From: Sphaerisporangium krabiense
GTDB taxonomy: Bacteria; Actinomycetota; Actinomycetes; Streptosporangiales; Streptosporangiaceae
Direction: 5' to 3'
DNA: 64,000 nucleotides
NCBI RefSeq assembly: GCF_014200435.1
Contig: NZ_JACHBR010000001.1
Span: 3,069,501-3,133,500 of the forward strand
The translations under genes and the position numbers were made by a program. The notes below the pieces were generated by a model. It saw only the letters and a program-made list of their open reading frames with translations, was not told where the DNA came from and did no database searches. Shown here piece after piece: positions 13,138 to 15,564 of the stretch. Position 1 is the first letter of the stretch. Every line of letters begins with the position of its first letter.

Positions 13138-13398
13138 TTACAGGGCGCCGTTTTTGAGCGCGATACGAAATGCACCCCACCCCGTGTGAGTGAAAGCCAG
13201 AATCCTGCCATGAGGATCCTTAGAATCGCGCACCAGGTACAGTGATTTCTCTCCCCCTCCGTACGATGCACGACTCGCGCCACGCGCGATGCAGACCTCG
13301 ACGCAGTCTCCGCCGTTGTTGCTGTGACTACTCTTACGCCATTGACCGTGGAATCGAAGCTTGTCGTCCATCCGGCGCCTCCGTGAGGAGTCGGTCAT
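13138..13398 (-). CDS. DUF397 protein (orphaned from its XRE partner)
   Basis: 86 residues from ATG 13398. The DUF397 hallmarks are WRKSSHSNNGGDCVEVCIA, the strand LVRDSKDP and the C-terminal block ILAFTHTGWGAFRIALKNG. These small proteins normally pair with an upstream XRE regulator (family including BldB-like partners) in streptomycete development and stress. Here no intact XRE gene is adjacent; only a 37-codon stub ends at its start (next entry). The 166-nt gap to the histidine kinase gene at 12971 holds GC-rich hairpin-forming DNA and no evident gene. Confidence 0.9.
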   Translation of the reverse strand: MTDSSRRRRMDDKLRFHGQWRKSSHSNNGGDCVEVCIARGASRASYGGGEKSLYLVRDSKDPHGRILAFTHTGWGAFRIALKNGAL

Positions 13399-13508
13399 GA
13401 AAGCTCTCTGGCCGTCCGTTCGATCAAGGCGCGTGAATCCACGGGTTCAGTCACGGGTAAGGCGGCAGGGGGACGGAGAAGCACAGCCCGAGCGTAGCGA
13501 GGACCAAT
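13395..13508 (-). pseudogene. Possible 3' remnant of an XRE regulator gene
   Basis: On the minus strand an open frame of about 37 codons ends PVDSRALIERTARELS and its TGA overlaps the DUF397 start as ATGA. Both the C-terminal pattern (SRALIxxxAxEL) and the 4-nt overlap are what intact XRE-DUF397 pairs show. The frame runs back only to the stop codon of the ATPase/nuclease gene at 13511, with no helix-turn-helix upstream. I infer that the rest of the XRE gene was replaced. The tract is short, so chance is not excluded. Confidence 0.4.
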
Positions 13509-13510
13509 GT

Positions 13511-15469
13511 TCAGGGGGTGGCCGTCGCTTCGGGAGTGACTGAGGTGTGTACTCGGCGTAGGTATTCCATGGCGTGTTCTGTGGCCGGGTCGTGGTTCAG
13601 TCGGTCGCGGTAGAAATGGAGACGGTCCTCACAGTCGTCGATGATCTCGCTCCAGGTGCGTGCCCAGAGGCGCACCCCTCCTTCCCACTCGGCGATACAT
13701 CCGGGTGGGCGGTTCGGTGCGCTCGCATCGCGCCTTACGGTCTTTTCCAACTCGGTGGAGACGACCCAGAAGTCCCAGGAAACGCGAGCGTCGCGGAATT
13801 GGGGATCGCTGACTATCGCCTCCGCGTAGCTCTTGATCTGGGCGACCTCGACTTGACCGACCTTGACATTGGGAGCCTTCAACTCGACCACGAGATGCTC
13901 CCTTCCGGCGTTTCCCCTGTGGGCGCGTCCCAGAAGCAGGTCGACGATCCCCGTTCGGCCGTCCTCGCGACGTACCGGATTCAGCCGGCCGTCCTCGGGT
14001 CGGCGTCCAAGCTCTTTGAGATGGCGCGCCAGCACGGCGTCAAGGCTCTGGTCGCTGACCATCAGCGCGTAGGCGTCACCGAAGATCCAGGTCTCGCGTT
14101 CGAGGATCTTGTGGAGCTCGGCCCGCTCTTTGACCGTCCGGCTGATCGCCGGCTCGAATACCAGCTTCTTGAGGGCGGCGAGGAAGTCGAGCCGGTCGCT
14201 GACCTGGCTGGTCGCCTTGATCACTTCGGAGAGGCTGGTTCTCTGGAGGATACGCTTCAGCGCTTCCTGCTCGGACTGCGGCAGCCGGAACAACTCATCG
14301 AGTACCGGGTAGAGCCCGCCGGGGTCGTGCGCGATGATCTCCTTGAGCAGCCGCAGTGTGGTCTTCTTGCTCTGCGTCACACCTGGCAGCCGTCGTGCGA
14401 TCGTGGTCGCCACCTCGTCGAACATCTGGCGTTCGACCGCCTGGGCGGGCAGGACGGGCTCGCCCGTGTACGGATAGACGCCTTCGCTTATCCAATCCTG
14501 GATCAGCCGTTCCCGTCGTTCCTGGTCGCGTCTTCTGAAGTGTATTCGCAGCTTTTCGCGCGCCGATTCCAGCAGGTCTGTGATCTCGTCCAGCTCTGCC
14601 AGCGGCAGATTACCTCGTCTTTCGACGAACCCGTCCCACAGAAGGTAGGCGGTGAAATGGTAGCCGGGAGCCTGTATTCCAGGGGAGGGCTCGTCCAGGA
14701 CCACGCCGTTGGCGTCGCAGAGTGCGAGCACCCGGCCGACATTTTTGCGCCACTCGATGACGCGGAGCAAAGGAGGTGCCTGGTCCGCCGCATCCGGCCA
14801 TGGCAGCACGTACTCCGCAATTTCAGTCCATACGGTGGCCGGGTCGAGTTGCGTGCCGTGATAGATGATTCGCACATCCGGATTGGCGGCGAGGAAGGGG
14901 GCGAAGGTGGAGGTGAGTTGCTGGGCGGTGTCCTCATGCGAGAGGCGGCCGACGAAGTTGGCCGGAACCGATACCTCGACACGAGTCCCGCACGGGATTT
15001 CGACGCGTTCTGGCTCGGAGATCTCGAAGTCGGCAGGCCGATCGACCGCTCCTGTGATGACCGTCCGCTCGGTCCGTCCGTCGGCGGCATGCGCCACTGT
15101 GATCCACCGAACCTGCTCTCCGAGGGCGAAAGCCCGAAGCCTGCCCTGCCCGCTGCGGCCATGCAGACCGCGCTTGAGGTTCGGCGAGACCTTGGCGGTC
15201 GTCTTCCATGATCCGCCCAGGCCGCTGAAGTAGCTCGTGCACGAGGCGTTGGGCATGCCATGGCCGTCATCGGTGATGCTGACCGACTCGACGCCGTTCA
15301 GTTCGTTGACCTCAAGTTCAACGCGGACATGACAGGCTTCGGCGTCCAGAGCGTTCCAGATCATCTCCGCGACCGCGCCCACGGGGTCTTTCTGCCGTGC
15401 CAGGCGCAGAAGATGATCGGGTTTCGCTTCGATGTGAACGATCGGCACAGGGTCACTATCGCAGACCAT
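13511..15469 (-). CDS. GHKL ATPase fused to a Shedu-like (DUF4263-type) PD-(D/E)XK nuclease
   Basis: 652 residues from ATG 15469 (GTG 15448 is an alternative). The N-terminus is a GHKL (HSP90/MutL/Morc-like) ATPase with N-box Asn39 in MIWNALDAEA, DDGHGM at 67-72 and the glycine-rich lid GRSGQGR at 104-110. A helical, charged middle (about 280-450) follows. The C-terminus carries the Shedu/DUF4263 pattern: LERETWIFGDAYAL near 460, Asp510 in GIVDLLLG and E529-x-K531 in VVELKAP, the likely metal site. Shedu nucleases are anti-phage effectors; the ATPase may be the sensor or activator (inference). Base composition is visibly less GC-rich than in the neighbours, which suggests transfer. Confidence 0.8.
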   Translation of the reverse strand: MVCDSDPVPIVHIEAKPDHLLRLARQKDPVGAVAEMIWNALDAEACHVRVELEVNELNGVESVSITDDGHGMPNASCTSYFSGLGGSWKTTAKVSPNLKRGLHGRSGQGRLRAFALGEQVRWITVAHAADGRTERTVITGAVDRPADFEISEPERVEIPCGTRVEVSVPANFVGRLSHEDTAQQLTSTFAPFLAANPDVRIIYHGTQLDPATVWTEIAEYVLPWPDAADQAPPLLRVIEWRKNVGRVLALCDANGVVLDEPSPGIQAPGYHFTAYLLWDGFVERRGNLPLAELDEITDLLESAREKLRIHFRRRDQERRERLIQDWISEGVYPYTGEPVLPAQAVERQMFDEVATTIARRLPGVTQSKKTTLRLLKEIIAHDPGGLYPVLDELFRLPQSEQEALKRILQRTSLSEVIKATSQVSDRLDFLAALKKLVFEPAISRTVKERAELHKILERETWIFGDAYALMVSDQSLDAVLARHLKELGRRPEDGRLNPVRREDGRTGIVDLLLGRAHRGNAGREHLVVELKAPNVKVGQVEVAQIKSYAEAIVSDPQFRDARVSWDFWVVSTELEKTVRRDASAPNRPPGCIAEWEGGVRLWARTWSEIIDDCEDRLHFYRDRLNHDPATEHAMEYLRRVHTSVTPEATATP

Positions 15470-15474
15470 GTGCG

Positions 15475-15491
15475 TGACCACGGCGTGATCA
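15475..15491. promoter_or_regulatory. Dyad immediately upstream of the ATPase-nuclease gene
   Basis: TGACCAC-GGC-GTGATCA pairs 6 of 7 arm positions and ends five bases upstream of ATG 15469, in the promoter region. A control site for a potentially toxic nuclease is plausible but inferred from position only. Confidence 0.35.
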
Positions 15492-15564
15492 GGTGAGAGG
15501 CGCGCCGCCGTTGGCGGTGGTCGTCTCAAGCGGCGGCGGCTGGGGAACTGTCGCGGCACATACC

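Follow-up and report, generated by a model that had tools for sequence, protein, structure and literature searches.

Which role does a protein play that joins a MutL/MORC/Hsp90-type ATPase to a nuclease-like end and is encoded by a solitary gene among regulators? The question is raised by a locus of Sphaerisporangium krabiense, which was analysed within a stretch of 64,000 nucleotides (the window, meaning the whole stretch). An initial annotation, made from the letters of the DNA, had taken the gene for an undescribed defence gene. In our assessment, it is probably a horizontally moving, single-gene, ATP-gated anti-phage nuclease which works like VcSduA of Vibrio cholerae (A1552 VC_00276). The features referred to below are the following.

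13511..15469, minus strand: whole gene, with GHKL ATPase, middle domain, helical linker and PD-(D/E)XK nuclease; 652 aa (protein P0001); stop codon at 13511-13513
14855..15442, minus strand: GHKL ATPase domain, about residues 10-205 (boundaries approximate); E35, N39, D67xGxG71, lid 101-110
14570..14854, minus strand: middle domain, about residues 206-300, following the ATPase; S5-like judging from where it lies in the Hsp90/MORC/MutL matches
14156..14569, minus strand: helical linker, about residues 301-438; helices 296-329, 341-356, 365-381, 383-394, 398-410 and 412-438 in the predicted model
13598..14155, minus strand: PD-(D/E)XK nuclease, Shedu-like, about residues 439-624; E448, D510, E529, K531, Q544, Y548
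13138..13398, minus strand: orphan DUF397 gene, context outside the system; its DUF5753/HTH partner is present in the sister genome G008 and not in the window

The gene start was set at 15469; a start at the in-frame ATG further upstream (15610) would make the gene run into that of the response regulator. The protein has the make-up first ascribed to it, a GHKL and PD-(D/E)XK protein of 652 residues on the minus strand, and all the motifs named at the outset were found again: N39, DDGHGM (D67-D68-G69-H70-G71-M72), the glycine lid (101-GLHGRSGQGR-110), ETWIFG, IVDLL and VVELKAP. Residues 31-151 match Pfam HATPase_c_3 (E 1.2e-15), and residues 522-552 give a sub-threshold match to HSDR_N_2. The AF2 model of P0001 has a mean pLDDT of 85.8. 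Structural comparison of this model with Foldseek bore out the GHKL fold of the ATPase half: among the matches listed (best 50), the best were TRAP1/Hsp90, MORC and MutL/MLH1. In these same 50 rows, the alignments to Hsp90, MORC and MutL/MLH1 chains span 328-468 columns and extend past the ATPase.

Conservation was assessed with an alignment of 72 rows (A3) made of P0001, the viral-contig copy L007 and 70 of the 79 genome loci. The loci left out have copies with stops or a frameshift (L020, L043, L046, L072), a partial copy (L029) or were chosen out (L026, L041, L042, L066). A further alignment, A4, holds 66 sequences. Both active sites are intact and invariant in the family. D67, G71, K89, G104, G107, G109, R110, E448, H453 and W461 are identical in all 72 rows, as are D510, E529, K531, Q544, Y548 and W606 in the C-terminal part. 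The catalytic residues D510, E529 and K531, for which the initial annotation had demanded conservation among homologues, are thus without exception in this alignment. N39 is kept in 71 rows and E35 and H103 in 70 each; the exceptions are a gap for N39, and a Q and a gap for E35. The relatives are near full length, share about 31-88% identity and come from several phyla. Against nine of them, the gene has an NG86 dN/dS of 0.07-0.16, which is a rough measure as dS is 0.93-1.55. Because near-full-length relatives occur in several phyla, key residues are invariant and dN/dS is low, the gene is not a chance open reading frame. As first noted, it is less GC-rich than its surroundings (63.4% vs 71.3% for the whole window). 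The same holds for the nine relatives (63-67%), each of which lies below its own locus (66-71%), so a low GC content characterises the gene itself. Turnover is indicated by the copies of L020, L043, L046, L072 and L152, which are interrupted by in-frame stops or a frameshift.

The nature of the C-terminal domain proved less simple. With Foldseek alone, EndoMS/NucS and MspJI came first for the nuclease, one match reached E <= 0.001, and no Shedu was among the matches listed (best 50). After reordering of the Foldseek matches by VIA-align, EcSduA and BcSduA (8ps4, 8ps5, 8ti9) took the top three places with a narrow lead; Shedu structures thus head the comparison, and the C-terminus falls in a nuclease fold. 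In profile-profile comparison, the nuclease matched 20 SduA_C domains with prob 93.8 (E 1.8e-7), six HSDR_N_2 domains with prob 74.9 and 20 Mrr_cat domains with prob 0.8. These sets comprised 20 of 23 SduA_C loci (minus L099, L100 and L110), 6 of 7 HSDR_N_2 loci and 20 of 25 Mrr_cat loci. The curated models are more reserved. Pfam SduA_C (PF14082, DUF4263) has no match in P0001 at E <= 1; two of the 72 rows match it at E <= 0.1 (best 0.0022), and its curated cut-off is not reached. The PADLOC SduA model gives a weak match in 18 of 72 rows (best 5.7e-5). In NCBIfam, the best match of P0001 is the BbrUII model NF050001 with 53.1 bits against a cut-off of 550, and the MutL model TIGR00585 scores 29.4 bits against a cut-off of 180. 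The phage family phrog_6203 matches P0001 at 5e-66. Since the curated Shedu and BbrUII models stay below their cut-offs in this family, it looks like a separate lineage, that of phrog_6203. The DUF4263/Shedu pattern read from the sequence therefore stands as far as profile-profile comparison and structure are concerned; the Pfam model makes no such call, and BbrUII/HgiDII-like proteins are nearer by profile.

Indeed, the whole family aligned with a set of seven BbrUII/HgiDII-like proteins at prob 99.9 (E 3.9e-31), covering 544 columns. Its C-terminal part alone reached prob 97.9 (E 3.2e-13), above SduA_C and first of the four sets compared, and the SduA_C set matched the C-terminal part of the BbrUII/HgiDII-like set with 96.7. 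The NCBIfam BbrUII cut-off is passed by three of the seven proteins. Together with the best NCBIfam match of P0001, these scores speak for an orphan BbrUII/HgiDII-type restriction enzyme, i.e., a sequence-specific GHKL endonuclease whose methyltransferase is unlinked or lost. A member on the Psychrobacter plasmid pP62BP1 points the same way: it lies beside a LlaMI-type restriction-modification pair (cytosine methyltransferase and endonuclease, adjacent to each other) and near Drt2. Nevertheless, this explanation is quite improbable. P0001 scores far below the model cut-off, and a search with four cytosine methyltransferase references (E <= 1e-6) found none in the window or the 79 genome loci and weak matches in 2 of 33 viral loci, whereas such a methyltransferase is adjacent to five of six plasmid-borne BbrUII-like genes. 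The family and the BbrUII/HgiDII enzymes look like sister groups, both combining GHKL with a Shedu-like nuclease and having different partners.

Two further frames touch on this kinship. The genome of S. krabiense also has a 263-aa frame (L097, G000:C1:2827090-2827554) with an SduA_C domain above the Pfam cut-off and may thus hold two different Shedu-type genes. The frame L100 (G112:C11) has 673 aa, is of GHKL type and ends in an SduA_C-like part (about 26 bits); its nearest NCBIfam model is BbrUII, below cut-off. Its catalytic E-to-K spacing is 528, and it was considered as VcSduA-type on that ground. L100 may bridge BbrUII enzymes and Shedu.

The distribution of the gene was surveyed. A scan of GTDB species genomes gave 536 stretches that match the pattern, of which 504 encode a relative (tblastn E <= 1e-3; part of them checked for full length). 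Relatives were also found in two phage records, both of Pasteurella phages, in 47 plasmid records (35 of which cover >= 80%) and in 33 viral-contig loci, some being partial or weak. In the viral contig L007, presumably Mu-like judging by its gene order, the gene stands between a Neck1-type gene and a head-protease gene. On a Phaeobacter plasmid, it lies beside a type ISP enzyme. No obvious defence neighbour was seen in the S. hygroscopicus, Alisedimentitalea, Salmonella and S. avermitilis records, whose gene tables are incomplete. In E. coli, 11 of 5,426 genomes carry a copy, a count that may miss diverged copies because the Salmonella copy, as DNA, served as the query. In all 11 carriers found, the site is the interval between psu (polarity suppression) and the integrase gene of P4-like satellites, and in 10 of them ssrA is annotated beyond the integrase; WP_021536577.1 is such a satellite copy from E. 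coli. This interval is described as a hotspot of antiviral systems (PMC9122126); the words GHKL, Shedu and DUF4263 are absent from the main text of that paper. Within the genus, 3 of 10 other genomes have the gene, and a class sample of 246 genomes gave five near full-length matches besides that of S. krabiense itself, one with an internal stop. Such patchiness is typical of a mobile gene. The initial annotation had called for a survey of defence neighbours and would have been contradicted by housekeeping contexts in all genomes; phages, plasmids, the psu-int hotspot and type I restriction loci were found instead.

The same data bear on the possibility of a DNA-repair or housekeeping protein of the MutL/MORC kind. 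Among solved GHKL proteins, MutL is nearest in sequence, and EndoMS/NucS heads the Foldseek matches listed for the nuclease. Such a role is very improbable, though, for a gene which is this patchy in genus and class, travels on phages and plasmids, shares no gene order among its close relatives (14 loci compared) and is disrupted by stops or a frameshift in four of the loci left out of the alignment. Only isolated matches to the window neighbours occur in those loci: L017 has related regulators 5-7.6 kb away, L020 and L022 have regulator matches of 38-43%, and in L152 the gene directly adjoins a DUF397 match (45%) of different orientation. DUF5753 relatives are present in 12 of 79 loci. DUF5753-type regulators are common in these genera, and their co-occurrence was therefore given no weight.

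In keeping with the claim that the gene stands alone, the five window neighbours scanned with Pfam are regulators and a LamG-type protein, and the type I restriction-modification references, like those for cytosine methyltransferases, have no match in the window. A NarL-type response regulator lies on the same strand, 95 bases upstream. An operon with it was considered and rejected because G008 keeps the regulator without the gene. Scans for promoters, terminators, repeats and tRNAs gave nothing useful. G008 matches both flanks (96% on the left, 90% on the right) and has no copy of the gene, either at the same site or elsewhere in the genome. Its site holds the DUF397 gene, a DUF5753/HTH partner and a HATPase_c_2 protein (L166:4741-6800). 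From window position 13449, G008 continues into the DUF5753/HTH and HATPase_c_2 genes, both missing from the window, and window positions 13507-15563, which contain the gene, correspond to 62 bases in G008. The two genomes differ as if one cargo had replaced another. The truncated regulator pair reported beside the gene is thus, more exactly, an orphan DUF397 gene whose partner is found at the same site in G008.

A recurrent neighbourhood was seen with type I restriction genes. Of the 79 genome loci (mean flank 14.3 kb), 13 have them at a distance of up to 8 kb, and in 12 of these they share the strand of the gene. The loci are L028, L037-L043, L048, L052, L085, L086 and L091, L038-L043 being close kin; L056 was excluded for having a weak helicase-like match only. 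In L085 and L086, which are assigned to different phyla, the gene is located between hsdS and hsdR, 5 and 58 bases downstream of hsdS judging by the ORF coordinates, and overlaps the gene that follows; L085 has additional genes ahead of hsdR. Both share one tree branch with L091. The overlapping gene encodes a Schlafen AlbA_2 and HATPase_c_4 protein in L086 (10031-11743) and a protein with no Pfam match at E <= 0.001 in L085 (10036-11406). A relative of the YgjP-like metallopeptidase accompanies hsdR in 9 of 79 loci (e.g., L038:7131-7853, L048, L085:17041-17745 and L086:15102-15809). On a tree of 80 proteins with 12 labelled rows, including two plasmid cases, the restriction-modification label needs eight changes, at least seven of them on starred branches. 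The labelled rows group together (as few changes in 4 of 500 shuffles), and each change may be a gain or a loss. Several independent acquisitions by type I loci are likely on this phylogenetic basis. The S. krabiense genome (8.5 Mb) has a single N6_Mtase match, 2.9 Mb from the gene, which suggests that chance closeness to type I genes is well under 1%, a rough figure from one genome, and defence genes cluster.

This neighbourhood could mark an accessory of type I restriction that is activated by HsdR, replaces it or guards it, with the stand-alone copies using unlinked systems. PrrC, a guard of type I restriction, is the model for the last of these roles. The counts within 8 kb, the position between hsdS and hsdR and the repeated changes on the tree all speak for such an accessory, which we nonetheless hold to be unlikely. 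Such a neighbour is missing from the window and from the examined flanks of 66 of the 79 loci, the label is clustered and may reflect losses, defence genes cluster anyway, and the only N6_Mtase match of the S. krabiense genome is far from the gene. Moreover, VcSduA is reported to act independently in E. coli (PMC12137116). Doubtful, too, is the broader idea that the lineage itself is a type I restriction module, an additional, ATP-clamped nuclease that hsd operons have taken up several times, even between hsdS and hsdR, and that would act on what stalls HsdR or sense the loss of HsdR, the stand-alone copies of phages and satellites being detached forms.

A defence role is likely since relatives occur on plasmids, viral contigs and P4-like satellites and near type I operons, and since the sister genome lacks the gene. 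The claim first made from the sequence is further supported by the domain folds and the SduA_C profile match. Two counterpoints are the absence of a defence gene next to the gene in the window and the 66 loci without a type I neighbour.

In MutL, MORC and Hsp90, the GHKL domain dimerises on ATP and closes a clamp. By analogy, the GHKL domain of the single-gene anti-phage nuclease proposed here would bind ATP, dimerise and, together with the middle domain, close as a clamp. Closure of the clamp would arm the C-terminal Shedu-like PD-(D/E)XK domain, and the DNA would be cut. We infer ATP-driven closure as the switch, DNA as the clamped substrate, phage DNA as the target and the sparing of self-DNA. 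A need for both active sites is predicted from what is described for VcSduA (PMC12137116).

On these findings, GHKL-gated Shedu-like nucleases seem to form a large family that is mobile. P0001 is not assigned to Shedu by the Pfam, NCBIfam and PADLOC models used, and the annotated copies encountered are named 'ATP-binding protein' or 'hypothetical protein'. A family-based profile could label many such genes. Furthermore, the repeated place in type I operons offers a testable idea of nuclease-restriction coupling.

How does the gene compare with known systems? Its initial description as undescribed does not hold because two published proteins, paraMORC3 (PMC2292703) and VcSduA (PMC12137116), have the same architecture. 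As these papers present them, the design and the defence role are already known, and P0001 is not a discovery in design. The lineage is already present as phrog_6203 in the phage family library, where it has no function label. Shedu SduA proteins of E. coli and Bacillus cereus are the nearest nuclease folds and have the PD-(D/E)XK catalytic residues in common with P0001, but their N-terminal parts are different. The BbrUII/HgiDII restriction enzymes are homologous to the family over nearly the full length, albeit distant, and differ in the adjacent methyltransferase, for which the present family counts 0 of 79 loci.

ParaMORC3 is described as GHKL and S5 domains with a C-terminal RE-fold nuclease bearing E-D-ExK, some members being stand-alone, and is placed mainly in Proteobacteria and Bacteroidetes; a restriction-modification context is given for the wider group (PMC2292703). 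P0001 likewise joins a GHKL domain to a C-terminal RE-type fold, with E448, D510 and E529xK531 as the invariant counterpart of that motif, and the two lineages are likely identical as far as the published description goes.

VcSduA (type I-D) is described as a GHKL-type Shedu encoded by one gene, with homologues in about 1.2% of the genomes surveyed there; the paper cites Gu et al. 2025 and Loeff et al. 2025 on Shedu (PMC12137116). It protected at all tested phage ratios and preserved the host, and loss of an ATPase or a nuclease residue (mutants E27A and K557A, both inactive) abolished defence (PMC12137116). By its published description rather than by sequence, VcSduA resembles P0001 in its N-terminal GHKL ATPase, clamp-like middle domain and C-terminal PD-(D/E)XK domain. 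The catalytic E-to-K spacing is 530 in VcSduA vs 496 in P0001 and 493-516 across the 72 rows. By analogy, P0001 would be a relative or a parallel member of VcSduA.
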